Origin: Bacteriovorax sp. BSW11_IV
GTDB lineage: Bacteria; Bdellovibrionota; Bacteriovoracia; Bacteriovoracales; Bacteriovoracaceae
Reading direction: 5' to 3'
Assembly (NCBI RefSeq): GCF_000447755.1
Contig: NZ_AUNE01000004.1
Location: 62,001 to 126,000 of the forward strand
Length of the DNA: 64,000 bases
The translations under genes and the position numbers were made by a program. The notes beneath the pieces were generated by a model that was given only the letters and a program-made list of their open reading frames with translations, was not told the origin of the DNA and did not search any database. Shown in pieces: positions 725-60,811 of the stretch (positions are counted from its first letter, which is position 1; every line of letters starts with the position of its first letter).

Positions 725-2660
725 ATTCTTCAACAGCTGGGAAGTAAACACCCTGTTCATTAATTTTGTGATTTTCGGGGAAGTCATTTTTCAACTCGTC
801 AATAGAGTAGATCGACTCTGGAAGATTGAGAGAGTGGCGCAGCTTTTCCATCGTTTCTGGAACAAATGGTTGAAGCATAATGAGAAGGTTCTTTAAAATG
901 TAAAAACATGAGTAAAGAGCATCACTTCTTTCTTCAATTGGAAAACGATCATCATGGGGCTTATATTGGTTGAATAAGCCATTGATGATTCTTGCATAGT
1001 TCTCTAGGGCCCCTAAGGCCTTAGGGTATTCAGCTTTTTCCATAAAACGAATATATGACTGAACCATTTTTTGTGTCTCAGCTTCTGTCTTTCCAATTAG
1101 TTTTCCTTTTGGAACAACACCATCAAACTTTGAATGGCACGCTGAGATTGGTTTTTCAAATGCAGCATTCATTGGACCAGCAAGGAATAGGTTTTTGTTT
1201 TTGAAAACTTCAAAATCAAAATTAGACGCTTTTTCAGAAAGACTTAAAGTAGATAAAAAGTAACGTAACTGATCTGGAGCATAGCCCATTTCATTTACAA
1301 GTTGATCACCCGTATAGAAGTTTCCTTTAGATTTACTCATTTTTTCACCATTAATTTGTAGGTGAAAATTACTGAAAACATCAGTTTGTTGTAGTTCGCC
1401 TTTAAGTGGTTGTCTCATTGGGTCTTCTTGGTAACCAAACCACATACTTCCTTGCATTAAGACGTAGAAAAAGACGTTATCAGTTCCTAGAAATTGATAA
1501 ACCTTTGCCTCTGGATCACACCAGAAATCTTTATAAAGCTCAGGCGATAGGCCTTTCTTTTTAAGCGCTACTTTTGAAAATGAAATTGGTGCAATTAGAG
1601 ATTCTGGCCATACGTAGAGAGTTTTTCCCTCCATACCAGGTTCAATATCTGTCGGAACAGGAATTCCCCAAGATACGTCACGGGTAATTGAACGGTGTGC
1701 CCAACCATCATTTAGAGTACATTCAATACCTTTTTTTGTTAGAAGCTCTAGCCCAACTTTTAAATCTGCTAGATTGTTGAATTGGACAAGAACTTGTCTT
1801 CCTGGTGCATAACGACTTTTATGTGCTGGAAGTGAATCTTTAATCTCTTTATAGTCTGGCTCTGATTTATTCGTGAATAAAACAGAAGGGTGAACTGTTC
1901 CAAGAACTTCTTGAAGAATAGACTTTCTCCAAGTCTTCTCTTTTGTCGAAAGCCACTCGATTAATTGATCAGTGACTTTCCACATATTCAAATACCAATG
2001 GTCTGTTTCTTTTAAAACAGGAGTGGCATCGCTTAGAGTACTTCTTGGGTTAATAAGCTCACTAGGATCATATTGAGCGCCACATACATCACAGTCATCA
2101 CTGTAAGCACTCATATTTGTACAACTTTCGTTTGGACATTTACCTTGTACATAACGATCGGGAAGGAACATGCTAAGTTTTGTATCAAACCATTGTCTGC
2201 TTGTTTTTCTATCAAGCATATTATTTGCATGCATCTTTCTTAGAAAATCTTGGCACAGTTCTTTATGGGCCTCAAAATTTTCCTCACGAGAAGTTCCTGT
2301 GTAGACATCAAGGCCAATTGAGAAACGATCCATAGTCGCTTTTTGGCGAGCGTGAACTTCTTCAATAAATTCTTGAGTTGTTTTGCCTAATTTCTTTGCA
2401 GCTACTTCACTCGTTGAGCCGTGATCGTCTGTACCACATACAAACAATACATTGTCATTGCCGATGAGAAGTCTTGTCCAACGTGAATAAACATCTGCTG
2501 GAACGTGTGCACCTGCTAGGTGGCCAAGGTGAACTGGTCCATTTGCATAGGGCATACCGGCAGTGATCACTGCTTTTTTGGGACGAGTAATTCGGCCTAG
2601 GATTGATGGGATGTCCTGTTTTGGACGCATGTCTTTTTTGTTATTTGTTTCTTCATTCAT
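723..2660 (-). CDS. metG: Methionyl-tRNA synthetase
   Basis: Class I aminoacyl-tRNA synthetase charging tRNA-Met (cytoplasm). It shows the HIGH-type motif HLGH (44-47), the KMSKS motif (440-444), and a CxxxxC...CxxC zinc knuckle (Cys175, 180, 190, 193). Length is 645 residues without any C-terminal EMAP-type tRNA-binding domain, so it is long for the minimal form. The excess is mostly a segment of about 65 residues (about 254-318) between WRKSILQE and the conserved block ending ITRDVSWGIP, where E. coli MetG has only a few residues. A 25-30 residue N-terminal extension is also present. No clear Shine-Dalgarno precedes ATG 2660; an in-frame stop lies about 40 nt upstream, so the start cannot be much earlier. 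Confidence 0.95.
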   Translation of the reverse strand: MNEETNNKKDMRPKQDIPSILGRITRPKKAVITAGMPYANGPVHLGHLAGAHVPADVYSRWTRLLIGNDNVLFVCGTDDHGSTSEVAAKKLGKTTQEFIEEVHARQKATMDRFSIGLDVYTGTSREENFEAHKELCQDFLRKMHANNMLDRKTSRQWFDTKLSMFLPDRYVQGKCPNESCTNMSAYSDDCDVCGAQYDPSELINPRSTLSDATPVLKETDHWYLNMWKVTDQLIEWLSTKEKTWRKSILQEVLGTVHPSVLFTNKSEPDYKEIKDSLPAHKSRYAPGRQVLVQFNNLADLKVGLELLTKKGIECTLNDGWAHRSITRDVSWGIPVPTDIEPGMEGKTLYVWPESLIAPISFSKVALKKKGLSPELYKDFWCDPEAKVYQFLGTDNVFFYVLMQGSMWFGYQEDPMRQPLKGELQQTDVFSNFHLQINGEKMSKSKGNFYTGDQLVNEMGYAPDQLRYFLSTLSLSEKASNFDFEVFKNKNLFLAGPMNAAFEKPISACHSKFDGVVPKGKLIGKTEAETQKMVQSYIRFMEKAEYPKALGALENYARIINGLFNQYKPHDDRFPIEERSDALYSCFYILKNLLIMLQPFVPETMEKLRHSLNLPESIYSIDELKNDFPENHKINEQGVYFPAVEE

Positions 2661-31001: not shown

Positions 31002-31160
31002 TACGAAAAAAACCAAAAAAATCAAAAAGTTGAGGTTTATTGGATTTTAGGGCACTTAGAGTGAGCGTAAGGGGCTGTTTTTAAATAACATTTAATTATT
31101 TTAACAATTGTAATGAAATTCATTGAGAATTCCCCCTTATAATGATGCTAAGGAGGGGCC

Positions 31161-32837
31161 ATGGAAAGTGAAGTTGTTAAAATAGCACTTTTATCTGATG
31201 ACCCGATTTATATCAGAAAGCTGAGAAAGTTCTTAAAAGATCACTATCCAGGGCGAGAGCTTGCGGTATTTGGTCACGATCAGAGCTGTCGTGATTATTC
31301 GCTTGCTGCCTTATTTCCAGCTCTCATTGAAAAAAAAATGATTTCTCTTCTCATTATCGACTTCGATAAAAACTACCAGTACAAGCGCGATCTTTTAAAA
31401 ATCATTAACAAGTATCATTTTTTAAAACATATACCTCGAGTTGGAGTGTTTGGAGAGGTTCATCACAATAGTGATTTACTTGAGGCCTATTCTCTTGGTG
31501 CTTTGTTATGTGATTATAAGCGCGATGATCTTGAAGACTTTGTTTTTAATTTAAAATTTTTGGAAAAGCGCGAAGGGACAGGGGCTCCAAGCTATGCCCG
31601 TGCCGATGGCCATGGAACAGTTTTGTGGGCGAAGTTTCTGTGCAGTATTTCTGACATCTCTCTTGAAGAAGTATCTACTCTTACGAAGATTAATAAAATT
31701 GCCCCTGATAAAAAGTGGTTGGAAGAGTTCTTGCCAAGTTTCGCTGCACCTAGAAGTTTTATAAATGAAACAGACGATGTGAAAAAGAAGTTTTCTTGGA
31801 TCGAAGATATTAATACGTTAAATTTTATCACTGAGCATCCAGAGATGTTTATGTGTGACAAAGTTAATGTCAAAAGTTTGGAAAAAAGTGGTGTGGATGC
31901 GCGCTTCAATTCCTTGCTTGTTGAAAAAAGAATTGAATTAGATCGTGAGGAAGAAGTTTTAAACGAAATTAAAAAGAATTTCAAAAAATATAAAAATCAT
32001 CCTATAAAAGATAAGACTCGCATTATGATTATCGATAAAAAAATGCGATTGATGGAAGGTGTGTGTGAGCGTTATCAAGAATTAGAATATAATCTTTTTA
32101 ATTACCCGTACATGCTTGACGACTTTAGAATTGTAAAAAAAGTTTTACCTGAAATTTTAATTGTTCAAGAAGATGAGTTTGAAGTTGTTAATGGGGAAGG
32201 ACAAGTTTTGCAATTGTCCACAAAGGAAAAGTTAGAGCGTTTAGTCAAGCAACTTGAAGAATCATTCGAAGAACCCCCAATCCTTCTGATCTTTAATCGC
32301 AAAAAGAAATTTGTTTCGAACTTAAGGTATTGTATGTGTTTTGATGGAGATGGGACTGTTGAACTCCTAGAAAAGTTAGGAAAAATTTATCAAAAGAATA
32401 TTTCACCAGAATGGAAATCTTCACTAAAGTGGGACAGTCAAGAGGATAAAATTTCAAGTGATGAAATTGATCTCATCGGATTAAAACGCACAATAATGAT
32501 TGAGATCCCAATTGTGCTCAAAAATATAAGTGAGCACATGGTTGAAGTAAAGGCGCCAATGCCATTGAATGATGGGGCCGTTCTTCTCATTGATAATGTA
32601 AATCCATTCTACATAACCATTTTTAAAGATCTCTCAGACAAAGATGTTAGTAAGGGAATCGTTAATGGAATTGATGAAACCTATAAAATGAAAGTTCGAC
32701 GACTTGTTAATGATTTAATTAAGTTGCCAAAAACTAAAGAAGATGAATTGGAAACGCAAAAATATAAACAGTTAAATATTGATAAATTCATGGAAAAGAT
32801 AAAAGTAGGTATGAGAAAAGTAGATGAAATAGTTTAA
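31161..32837 (+). CDS. Large protein with degenerate response-regulator receiver domains
   Basis: A 558-residue cytoplasmic protein. Residues about 5-135 look like a receiver domain: acidic pair Asp13-Asp14, candidate phospho-Asp67 in LLIIDFDKN, and a typical alpha4-beta5 region (EAYSLGALLCDY). A second receiver-like segment is at about 283-400 (RIMIIDKKMRLMEG...PEILIVQEDE). Residues about 445-520 could be a PilZ-like beta-barrel (RTIMIEIPIVLKNISEHMVEV), which would bind cyclic-di-GMP, but the RxxxR motif is not seen. A strong AAGGAGGGG site and a TATAAT box (31138-31143) precede it. Signal-transduction scaffold is the best guess; no close family is recognised. Confidence 0.6.
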   Translation: MESEVVKIALLSDDPIYIRKLRKFLKDHYPGRELAVFGHDQSCRDYSLAALFPALIEKKMISLLIIDFDKNYQYKRDLLKIINKYHFLKHIPRVGVFGEVHHNSDLLEAYSLGALLCDYKRDDLEDFVFNLKFLEKREGTGAPSYARADGHGTVLWAKFLCSISDISLEEVSTLTKINKIAPDKKWLEEFLPSFAAPRSFINETDDVKKKFSWIEDINTLNFITEHPEMFMCDKVNVKSLEKSGVDARFNSLLVEKRIELDREEEVLNEIKKNFKKYKNHPIKDKTRIMIIDKKMRLMEGVCERYQELEYNLFNYPYMLDDFRIVKKVLPEILIVQEDEFEVVNGEGQVLQLSTKEKLERLVKQLEESFEEPPILLIFNRKKKFVSNLRYCMCFDGDGTVELLEKLGKIYQKNISPEWKSSLKWDSQEDKISSDEIDLIGLKRTIMIEIPIVLKNISEHMVEVKAPMPLNDGAVLLIDNVNPFYITIFKDLSDKDVSKGIVNGIDETYKMKVRRLVNDLIKLPKTKEDELETQKYKQLNIDKFMEKIKVGMRKVDEIV

Positions 32838-57841: not shown

Positions 57842-59275
57842 GTGAAGCATAAAGTAGAAATTATCGAGCCAAATAAATTTGATCAGCAAAATCATTTTTA
57901 TCCTAAAGCGCTTAATACTCAACTCCATGCGATGGTTAGCCATTTTTTCAACCTCGACCACGAACGAATCATCAAACGCTACTCCCATTTACATCCACAA
58001 GTTGACCCCGAATTTCTAAGAGAAATATTAAAGTATAAGTGTAAGCACTTCTTTTGGGGGGGCTCGGATTTATTCTATGTAACAACAGAAGCGGGTAATA
58101 GAAGAATGGTCGTTCTTGAAACGAACTCATGTCCTTCTGGACAAAAATCCATGCCTGAGAGAACGGATGCTGATGAGCACCGCGGATATAAATTTCTCGT
58201 AGAGAATTCATTTATTCCTGAGCTTAAAAAAAGAAGACTTCCAGAAGGTGGAATTGCAGTTATTTATGATAAGAACTATATGGAAGTTTCAGGATATGCT
58301 GCAACTTTAGCGGACAGTTTACAAGAAGAAGTATTTCTTGTGCCGTTTTTTAACAATGAAAAAAGAGCTGCTGAATTTAGAGATGGCATTCTTTACGCCA
58401 ATGTTCCAGGGCGTGGGGAAGTGCCTATTAGAGCGGCCCTTCGTTATGTGACACAAAAGCCTTGGAATAGAATTCCAATTGATACGAAAACATTTATCTA
58501 TAACTCTACTCTGGTATGTCTATCAGGGGGAAGAAATAAACTTGTCGCCAATAAGGCCTATGAATTTTTTAATTCAGAAATTTCAAGCTCGGGTCTTAAA
58601 ATCAACATGCCCCAGACAATTCGTGATGTCAGTAAAGGGGAGATTCCACTTTGGATTCAACGCTTCGGTGGCTATGCCGTAATTAAAAATCCTTACTCGA
58701 ATGCTGGGCAAGGTGTTTATACAATCACTTCTCAAAAAGAACTAGATGCCTTTATGGCCGAAGATTATGCCTATGATCAATTCATTGTTCAAAGTTTAAT
58801 CGGTCATTATGATTGGAGTTCCAAAACTGATGGTGCGAAGTATTTCCACATTGGAACGATCCCCAATAAAAGAGGCCAGATCTACGTTGCCGATTTAAGA
58901 ATGATGGTCTACTCATCACCAGATGGTTTTTATCCATGTGCCATCTATGCCAGAAGAGCAAAAGAGGGTTTAAAGTCAGACTTGAAAGAAGTTGAATCGA
59001 GTTGGGATGTATTGGGAACAAATCTTTCTGTGAAGCTTGCTGAAAATGAATGGTCATCGGATACAAGCAGATTGATGTTGATGGATAGAAAAGATTTTAA
59101 CTCACTTGGAATCGGTACTGACGATCTCATTGATGGATATATTCAAACAATTTTGAGTATTATTGCTATTGATAAAATGTGTCAGCACCTAGTGAATAAG
59201 AAAGGAAACTTCAAAATGAAGTTGTTCCAATCTCTTGATAATGACAAATCTTTATTAAAAGAAATAATGTCCTAG
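57842..59275 (+). CDS. ATP-grasp-like protein of unknown substrate
   Basis: A 477-residue cytoplasmic protein starting at GTG 57842. A central and C-terminal part resembles ATP-grasp ligases: YAVIKNPYSNAGQGVYTI (lysine and glycine loop), YDQFIVQSLIGHYDW, and a DLRMMVYSS metal-side strand. The N-terminal third has MVVLETNSCPSGQKSMPERT and is not recognised. Amide- or peptide-forming ligase activity is possible. It follows the NhaR-like regulator by 7 bp and overlaps the exported nucleotidyltransferase gene by 21 bp at its end. Confidence 0.6.
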   Translation: MKHKVEIIEPNKFDQQNHFYPKALNTQLHAMVSHFFNLDHERIIKRYSHLHPQVDPEFLREILKYKCKHFFWGGSDLFYVTTEAGNRRMVVLETNSCPSGQKSMPERTDADEHRGYKFLVENSFIPELKKRRLPEGGIAVIYDKNYMEVSGYAATLADSLQEEVFLVPFFNNEKRAAEFRDGILYANVPGRGEVPIRAALRYVTQKPWNRIPIDTKTFIYNSTLVCLSGGRNKLVANKAYEFFNSEISSSGLKINMPQTIRDVSKGEIPLWIQRFGGYAVIKNPYSNAGQGVYTITSQKELDAFMAEDYAYDQFIVQSLIGHYDWSSKTDGAKYFHIGTIPNKRGQIYVADLRMMVYSSPDGFYPCAIYARRAKEGLKSDLKEVESSWDVLGTNLSVKLAENEWSSDTSRLMLMDRKDFNSLGIGTDDLIDGYIQTILSIIAIDKMCQHLVNKKGNFKMKLFQSLDNDKSLLKEIMS

Positions 59276-60160
59276 AAGCTGAACACAAGTAGGCTTCTTC
59301 GTTCCATTTTCTATGTAAAGTGCGTTCTTATTCCAAAATGCCGTGGCCGTTTCATCGTCCATATTAAGCCAAACGACACTCATTCTTACAAAGTGCTCTC
59401 TCCAAGCGCGAGGAGTTTGTAATTTTTTAACTTCAGGCATTTCTAGATCTGAAAGATTATTTTGGCTCACAAATTCAAACCAATCTTTTTCATAAGCATT
59501 CAATGAACCATTGTAATGATAAAGTGATCGTTGTTTGATGATATCAAGGATGGCCGGATTCATATCATCGACAGGCCAATTTTGGCCCGCTAGCTTTGCC
59601 CTTAGCTCACTAGACGAAACACCTTGCCCATAATCTTTTCTTTTGAAGATATAAAGATTTGGTTGGCGCTTAAACTCTTCGTCTTCTGTGAGTTCAGGTC
59701 TTGGCATGATAATCCAATTTTTAGAGTAATCATTTTTTTCTTCTTCCGTATAAATTTCCCAGCGATCAGCGCCGCCAACACGAAAGACGATGTCATTAAA
59801 CTTTTTCTGAAGAGATTTCCAAAGAGGTGATTTGCCACCCGTTGGTTCGTAAGTAACTTCTACCTTGTCACCGTAGAGTGCAGTCATGGCACGAATCATG
59901 TCCATGCGATCTTTTATTGAGGCCAAATAATTTTTAGGTCCTTTCGTATTTACTGAAACGACTACTTTGTCGAAACCGTAATCTTCAATAAGCTCTTTAA
60001 TAGTTTGTAAGTGTGATCTGTGGGGTGGGTCAAACGAGCCAGGGTAGAAGGCCACTTTCTTATCGCGTTTGATGTCGCTAATAAGGTTATAGTCGCTTGC
60101 TAATGTGAATGATCCTACAAGCAAGCAAATCAAGAACATAAAAGTCTTGATAAAATTCAC
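59255..60160 (-). CDS. Exported nucleotidyltransferase, NadD/NMNAT-like
   Basis: A 301-residue protein with a clear signal peptide (MNFIKTFMFLICLLVGSFTL, cut after LAS). The mature protein opens with VAFYPGSFDPPHRSHLQTI, the nucleotide-binding region of the adenylyl/cytidylyltransferase family with HRSH for HxGH. The family's second site, usually ISSTxxR, is visible as GVSSSELRAKL, as in NadD. The C-terminal 90 residues are unrelated to NadD. NadD is normally cytoplasmic, so export is unusual. Confidence 0.82.
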   Translation of the reverse strand: MNFIKTFMFLICLLVGSFTLASDYNLISDIKRDKKVAFYPGSFDPPHRSHLQTIKELIEDYGFDKVVVSVNTKGPKNYLASIKDRMDMIRAMTALYGDKVEVTYEPTGGKSPLWKSLQKKFNDIVFRVGGADRWEIYTEEEKNDYSKNWIIMPRPELTEDEEFKRQPNLYIFKRKDYGQGVSSSELRAKLAGQNWPVDDMNPAILDIIKQRSLYHYNGSLNAYEKDWFEFVSQNNLSDLEMPEVKKLQTPRAWREHFVRMSVVWLNMDDETATAFWNKNALYIENGTKKPTCVQLLGHYFF

Positions 60161-60306
60161 AAAATTCTCCGTGTGCAGGTTTGTGTGATTGTATTGGAAA
60201 ATTGGTCCAATACTATAAAAATGTCACTAACGTGTAGTTATTTCAGGTGTTTAACTTCATTTTATTGATTTTTAGCGTTTTTACGGGTCAAAATTGTAAG
60301 ATATTG

Positions 60307-60336
60307 TTGATTTGTAGCGTCATTTTTTAATTTATA
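60307..60336 (+). promoter_or_regulatory. Candidate promoter for the C-rich RNA
   Basis: TTGATT (60307-60312), 18-bp spacer, TTTATA (60331-60336). The start would fall near 60343, just before the first stem of the RNA. Both elements are partial matches to sigma-70, and AT-rich DNA gives such matches by chance. Confidence 0.45.
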
Positions 60337-60342
60337 TTGGGT

Positions 60343-60575
60343 CCATCGAAACGAGATGAGAACTCGAATCCCCCCAAAGAGCTTCTCACCCCCCAATCGA
60401 GTTTCGAAAAATTGGAAGCGATTGAAGTACTAAAATACTTCCCCCCCAAAATGAGTACTGTCTGTTATGAATTTTAACGACTGAATCAATCGCTTCTTTC
60501 ATCAAAAGTTCAAAAAATTTCCCCCATCCCCCCAAAAAAAAAGGCCTGGTAAAAACCAGGCCTTCTTTCATTTTA
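60343..60575 (+). ncRNA. Probable structured regulatory RNA with repeated CCCCCC segments (6C-like)
   Basis: The 426-bp gap 60161-60586 has no convincing ORF, but 60346-60564 shows nested stems. P1 is TCGAAAC (60346-60352) with GTTTCGA (60401-60407). P2 is TGAGAACTC (60357-60365) with GAGCTTCTCA (60379-60388, one bulge), its loop holding CCCCCC. P3 is GAAGCGATTGA (60415-60425) with TCAATCGCTTC (60486-60496), 11 perfect bp. P5 is GTC-T-GTTA (60460-60467) with TAACGAC (60475-60481). CCCCCCAA occurs at 60370, 60389, 60442 and 60528, plus CCCCC at 60521, mostly unpaired. A hairpin terminator ends it. Design resembles actinobacterial 6C RNA, whose C-rich loops pair with G-rich mRNA; homology is not claimed. 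Confidence 0.7.
60534..60570. terminator. Shared terminator of acpP (minus) and the C-rich RNA (plus)
   Basis: AAGGCCTGG (60541-60549) and CCAGGCCTT (60556-60564) form a 9-bp stem. On the minus strand a T-run (60542-60534) follows, ideal for acpP. On the plus strand the tail TTCTTTCATTTT is U-rich and adequate. Confidence 0.85.
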
Positions 60576-60586
60576 TGATGCTTTAA

Positions 60587-60811
60587 TTATTGTTTCTTTT
60601 CGATGTAAGCAACTACGTCGTTTACAGTCTTAAGACCTTCAGCGTCTTCCTCAGGGATTTCAACACCAAATTCGTCTTCCATTTTCATCATAAGCTCAAC
60701 GATGTCTAGTGAGTCTAGGTTTAGATCGTCTACGAAGCTTGTTTCAGGCTTGATCTTAGCGATATCAATTTTAGTTGCATCAGATACAAGTTTAATTACT
60801 TTTTCTTCCAT
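60587..60811 (-). CDS. acpP: Acyl carrier protein
   Basis: A 74-residue acidic carrier. The 4'-phosphopantetheine serine is Ser34 in NLDSLDIVEL, within the usual helix II start. ATG 60811 is the start (AAGGAG upstream); the longer frame to 60835 reads through the ribosome site. It follows fabG by 42 bp, in the fabH-fabD-fabG-acpP order. Confidence 0.97.
   Translation of the reverse strand: MEEKVIKLVSDATKIDIAKIKPETSFVDDLNLDSLDIVELMMKMEDEFGVEIPEEDAEGLKTVNDVVAYIEKKQ

Follow-up and report, generated by a model that had tools for sequence, protein, structure and literature searches.

Clustered, exposed C-runs in a structured candidate small RNA, and a covarying C-loop element in Bacteriovorax 3′UTRs

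Does the C-rich intergenic stretch beside acpP specify a small RNA, and what could its runs of C be used for? A first-pass annotation of the window (the whole 64,000-nucleotide stretch of DNA analysed here) had proposed a C-rich, structured and apparently autonomous RNA gene at this place, a proposal which is supported by the C-runs and by the fold. The features of the locus are as follows.

59255–60160, minus strand: divergent neighbour, cytidylyltransferase-like protein (PF01467) with a signal-peptide-like N-terminus
60265–60320, plus strand: direct repeat TTGATTTKTAGCGT, copies at 60265–60278 and 60307–60320, just upstream of the proposed RNA (from the sequence)
60312–60338, plus strand: weak promoter-like site, TTGTAG - 15 nt - TATATT (read by eye)
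60340–60575, plus strand: proposed C-rich small RNA of ~230 nt (from sequence, fold and unpaired C-runs)
60346–60407, plus strand: 5′ domain, P1 60346–60352/60401–60407 and P2 60357–60365/60379–60388 with one bulge (same in MFE and centroid)
60370–60375, plus strand: C-run 1 (C6), hairpin loop of P2, unpaired probability 0.99–1.0
60389–60394, plus strand: C-run 2 (C6), internal loop 3′ of P2, unpaired probability 0.99–1.0
60414–60497, plus strand: central domain, P3 60414–60425/60486–60497 (12 bp) and P4 60426–60431/60454–60459 (MFE)
60441–60447, plus strand: C-run 3 (C7), loop of P4, CCCCCCAA from 60442, unpaired probability 0.98–1.0
60521–60533, plus strand: C-runs 4 (C5, 60521–60525) and 5 (C6, 60528–60533), CCCCCATCCCCCC, single-stranded linker ahead of the terminator, unpaired probability 0.79–0.97
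60541–60564, plus strand: intrinsic terminator hairpin of 10 bp, common to the proposed RNA and minus-strand acpP (terminator call)
60587–60811, minus strand: convergent neighbour acpP, acyl carrier protein (PF00550)

The exceptional feature of this locus is the clustering of its C-runs and not the count of CCCCCC. Five of the nine runs of at least five C on the plus strand of the window fall in a single 164-nt span. In the whole 3.65-Mb genome CCCCCCAA occurs 36 times on both strands together, and four of these copies are located here within 166 nt, where the other 32 copies would lead to an expectation of ~0.0007 per 166 nt of one strand. The window contains eight CCCCCC compared with 6.0 ± 3.2 in shuffled sequences, which makes the motif neither rarer nor commoner than expected. 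All five runs are 79–100% unpaired in the predicted ensemble, confirming the description of four CCCCCCAA copies and one CCCCC in loops or unpaired parts, with the run at 60441 now read as a C7. The AA flank of CCCCCCAA is constant in all four window copies, and the candidate RNA carries no long G-runs which could mask its C-runs.

Folding of the plus strand with the terminator included gives an MFE of −58.6 kcal/mol compared with −34.1 ± 4.2 kcal/mol for shuffled sequences (z = −5.82; no shuffle equals it), and the MFE and centroid structures agree. The MFE stems (P1 of 7 bp, P2 of 9 bp with one bulge, P3 of 12 bp, P4 of 6 bp and a terminator of 10 bp) are close to the 7, 9, 11 and 7 bp given in the first-pass annotation. 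The terminator after C-run 5 is real; the minus strand (T9, acpP side) has a better T-tract behind it than the plus strand has (CTTTCATTTT). The promoter which had been suggested to flank the RNA at its other end is weak: the −10-like TATATT at 60333–60338 is accompanied by a poor −35 (TTGTAG), the site was picked out by eye only, and a consensus promoter scan of the plus strand finds none at threshold. From this weak site the transcript would be expected to start near 60344–60346. A 46-codon ORF on the plus strand was considered as a use of the same stretch; because its TTG at 60337 precedes the expected transcript start, no credible ORF is present. The copies of TTGATTTKTAGCGT are 42 bp apart (~four helix turns) and are the only exact ones in the window, the next best having two mismatches. 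It is possible that this repeat serves as a regulator site.

Rfam at gathering assigns the window RNA to no family, and the 6C model (RF01066) gives no match between 60200 and 60620 even at E ≤ 10. Weak Rfam matches, for example MicC on the minus strand, are matches to the terminator. The window RNA therefore appears to belong to no described family and is probably not a member of 6C. It resembles 6C RNA and its mycobacterial representative B11 in displaying C6–C8 runs in the loops of hairpins, with one run at or before an intrinsic terminator, and in being a putative free-standing sRNA. However, it has five runs, only two of which are located in hairpin loops (P2 and P4), while three lie in an internal loop and in the linker (two of them single-stranded there), and its fold is larger and branched. 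The C-rich terminator loop of B11 pairs with G-tracts beside ribosome sites, lowering translation and mRNA level (PMC12395582). The linker UUUCCCCCAUCCCCCC before the terminator also resembles the C-rich seed UUUCUCCCAUCCCC of RsaE/RoxS (RF01820), whose model matches 60467–60568 weakly (26.6 bits, E 0.021 in a 421-nt search). However, the cutoff of 79 bits is not reached and most of the score apparently comes from the terminator and C-run. IsrR of Staphylococcus shares C-rich stretches, which are reportedly predicted to pair with Shine-Dalgarno sites, and RepG of Helicobacter is a Gram-negative sRNA with a C-rich loop. Another Gram-negative sRNA, sX13 of Xanthomonas, uses C-rich loops (PMC3771888). 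The likeness to RepG and sX13 lies in these loops; no homology was found, and at E ≤ 10 the window RNA matches none of these families.

Comparison with relatives suggests that the locus is an orphan without a detectable homologue among 129 family genomes. The covariance model of the RNA (R1), run against these genomes including one species of the same genus, matches itself alone at a meaningful score. The check proposed earlier, a covariance search for compensatory changes in relatives, thus comes out against conservation of this locus. The second R1 match, in G043 (20 bits, E 0.03), is antisense to an apparent start region with a G-run and is no C-rich RNA. Blastn against 116 relatives returned terminator look-alikes only, blastn in phage and plasmid collections returned no homologue, and the exact pattern of the sRNA gave no match in genome contigs. 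A three-run pattern, run on the 129 genomes, recovers its own locus and, among the matches read, no other C-rich RNA of like kind. The acpP gene of the same-genus species has an ordinary terminator and a different gene behind it, and the cytidylyltransferase-like gene has no match there, so that synteny from either neighbour leads to no counterpart. A paralogue of this cytidylyltransferase-like protein, with 42% identity, is present on G000:C14.

The remaining CCCCCCAA copies in the genome are mostly within genes and usually antisense. Most non-coding copies are found in the loop of a hairpin or immediately 5′ of a terminator, often downstream of a gene for a secreted protein. The copy at C3:38118 forms the loop of a hairpin of ~20 bp, that at C10:24305 is in a ~11-bp hairpin at the stop codon of a gene for a small secreted protein, and that at C38:41312 is in the C8 loop of a ~20-bp hairpin after a small secreted protein, where the stop codon is followed by C7. 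The copy at C43:1186 lies 5′ of a terminator with its own C6 loop, and that at C26:50905 lies just 5′ of a terminator. As a control, 24 of ~2100 random non-coding positions (~1%) are flanked by stems of at least 9 bp; simple scripts or inspection by eye served to call gene starts, signal peptides and terminators, and such counts are approximate. The hairpin enrichment is limited to these few non-coding sites, with no genome-wide excess. C6-then-T6 terminators are not in excess over the genome and stay flat against the reversed pattern, none of 157 terminators in a 680-kb sample has a C-run, and runs of at least five C in hairpin loops show no excess in a 464-kb sample beyond the window and C10:24305. 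On G000:C38 (L190 ~1463–1550, minus strand) the next gene encodes a look-alike small secreted protein and has the ribosome site TTGGGGAGG.

A C-loop terminator in G014, located 3′ of the gene for a small secreted protein with GHEVTYPLSCEKK as its C-terminal sequence, was the starting case for a comparison in which relatives of that protein were drawn from GTDB genomes (Bacteriovorax and Bacteriovoracaceae metagenome assemblies). Directly 3′ of the stop codon are two tandem hairpins with loops of C4–C7, the second of which is an intrinsic terminator.

~75–85 nt directly after the stop codon, L275–L284, L042 and L295–L307 (genus g14): tandem C-loop hairpin element in the 3′UTR of the small secreted protein

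The stems of this element covary. Among 11 aligned orthologues, 93.2% of cells are paired and both sides have changed at 16 of 21 pairs; fitting of the alignment to the structure favours pairing, and slid controls are nevertheless far lower. Doubly changed cells number 43 compared with 13.8 ± 2.7 in shuffles and with no more than 7 after sliding of the partner by 1–3 columns. C-run identity is kept as the surrounding stems change, the run of loop 1 being missing in one of the 11 orthologues (L282). Of the 14 genomes of genus g14, 13 contain a match to the element model at E ≤ 2e-8, and Halobacteriovorax orthologues of the secreted-protein gene are without the element. At cutoff, Rfam has no family for it. 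A covariance model built on a mixture of C-loop terminators was abandoned, as sequence alignment had misplaced the stems. Also set aside was the orthologue in G005/G172, whose C-rich 3′ ends are partly coding, a single C6 lying beyond the stop.

To our knowledge, 6C RNA has been described so far from Actinobacteria. The Bacteriovorax element shows the 6C layout of tandem C-rich loops, a second hairpin acting as terminator and covarying stems, with loops of C4–C7 that are not always C6. The RF01066 model aligns with it over its full length (1–75 of 75; L278/L295) in one of eight elements tested, at 28.4 bits against a cutoff of 47. The element is thus a 6C architecture outside Actinobacteria, whose membership in 6C is not established: the two-hairpin layout is alike, but the element is located in a 3′UTR, belongs to another phylum and scores below the cutoff. 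The idea of a 6C-like RNA outside Actinobacteria, put forward originally for the window locus, is borne out in this family by the Bacteriovorax 3′UTRs. The window RNA is not a copy of the element, because the element model (R3) gives 18.3 bits at 60515–60570 with hairpin 1 unpaired, and the reverse-strand terminator alone gives 14.5 bits.

The C6-in-loop device recurs in secreted-protein 3′UTRs of the window genus and of related genera, with covarying stems in Bacteriovorax, and this recurrence makes a functional reading of the exposed C-runs likelier. The reading which we favour, giving it an even chance, is that the window RNA is a trans-acting C-rich sRNA which blocks G-rich ribosome sites. 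An intergenic small RNA of ~230 nt would be transcribed from the plus strand, and its stems would leave the five C-runs exposed, some in loops and the others in the pre-terminator linker. Each run may then act as a seed for G-tracts, chiefly in or beside Shine-Dalgarno sites, and several mRNAs could be repressed by blocking of their G-rich ribosome sites. Such a mode might be likened to that of mycobacterial 6C/B11 or of staphylococcal IsrR, in an RNA of no described family. The 3′UTR element, too, may silence genes by such pairing with G-rich ribosome sites. We infer this mechanism, rather than observe it, because start-region pairing is no better than in shuffled controls. When the C-segments were scanned against 751 start regions (a sample of the genome) and dinucleotide-shuffled controls, strong pairing (−14 kcal/mol or better) was seen in 5.1% of start regions compared with 4.5% of shuffled ones. 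Across these 751 regions no signal rises above the controls, and the same-genus genome, which is without the sRNA, behaves alike and has equally frequent G-rich ribosome sites. The gene at 31161, which the first-pass annotation had named as a possible target, does rank among the top 3.6% of start regions; pairing of this strength is nevertheless no commoner than in the controls. At the same gene, CCCCC at 31132 and the ribosome site AAGGAGGGG (31130–31165) could pair in cis.

The chief rival to mRNA pairing is that the exposed C-runs bind a protein. The sRNA would then be a sponge for a C-binding regulator or for Rho, which would load on a C-rich sequence poor in G, and the 3′UTR C-loops would be the normal sites of that regulator. 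We regard this as unlikely, though well worth weighing: the preservation of C-run identity amid stem changes in the 3′UTR element fits a protein site as well as a seed, and the target scan without an mRNA signal and the constant AA flank of CCCCCCAA point the same way. However, no C-binding protein was identified, and these short, hairpin-held runs with an intrinsic terminator behind them are unlike the usual Rho site, which is long and unstructured. A recent, non-functional or strain-specific stretch, either decayed or newly born and having chance hairpins, would account for the locus being absent in every relative searched, including the corresponding position of the same-genus species. We consider it rather improbable in view of the four of 36 genomic CCCCCCAA copies gathered unpaired in 166 nt, the folding z of −5.8, which no shuffle attains, and the terminator and upstream repeat in place.

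Two further explanations place the function in a neighbouring gene, and both seem very doubtful. The stretch could be a convergent antisense or 3′-end element of acpP, which would be controlled by plus-strand readthrough of the weak T-tract. The two strands do share the terminator, with the stronger T-run on the side of acpP, but the C-runs are left unexplained, and acpP of the same-genus species has an ordinary terminator and another neighbour. It is still harder to credit a minus-strand signal, in which the cytidylyltransferase-like gene would have a leader with G-runs (a G-quadruplex or a G-rich leader). The minus strand folds well too (z = −3.3), but the plus strand clearly surpasses it when each is compared with shuffles, most G-tracts are 13–73 nt apart, and the acpP terminator stands between acpP and the stretch, where no promoter is apparent.

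Regulatory small RNAs of predatory bacteria are scarcely characterised, and the eight sRNAs of one study were called the first reported in Bdellovibrio (PMC3627812). C-rich terminator loops that serve as pairing seeds are described as a rarity among Gram-negatives, where two reports exist (PMC12395582). A conserved, covarying Bacteriovorax element together with an orphan five-run sRNA in a related genus would extend C-loop control to predatory bacteria. The observation of the first-pass annotation thus stands and its interpretation holds in part: the window locus is an orphan C-rich RNA, and a like kind of RNA is conserved in related genera. As a speculation to which we attach little probability, exposed C-runs might be a shared regulatory device throughout Bacteriovoracaceae, in which free-standing sRNAs of this kind and 3′UTR-derived C-loop terminator elements of secreted-protein mRNAs compete for G-rich ribosome sites or for one C-binding protein, linking envelope and secreted-protein expression. 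In that case a 6C-type system would have arisen independently in a Gram-negative predator lineage.

Some other C-rich structures were noticed in the collected genomes. Genus g43 (L308) has a weaker case of the 3′UTR element, likewise 3′ of a secreted-protein gene. In another family of the phylum, G074 (L065 ~1495–1550) and G111 (L136 ~830–870, minus strand) have a common terminator with a C7–C8 loop, which is preceded by CCCCCC and whose stems are partly changed. G063 (L061 1400–1600) contains two large tandem hairpins in non-coding sequence with two C-runs per loop, CCCCCCATTCTCCCCCCC and CCCCCCATTTCTCCCC. Tandem repeats of ~24–27 bp built on CCCCCATAGGACCA, which are possibly coding, are present in G010:C7, G010:C18, G067:C19, G006:C58 and G051:C10 (stretches L121, L123, L115 and L114).
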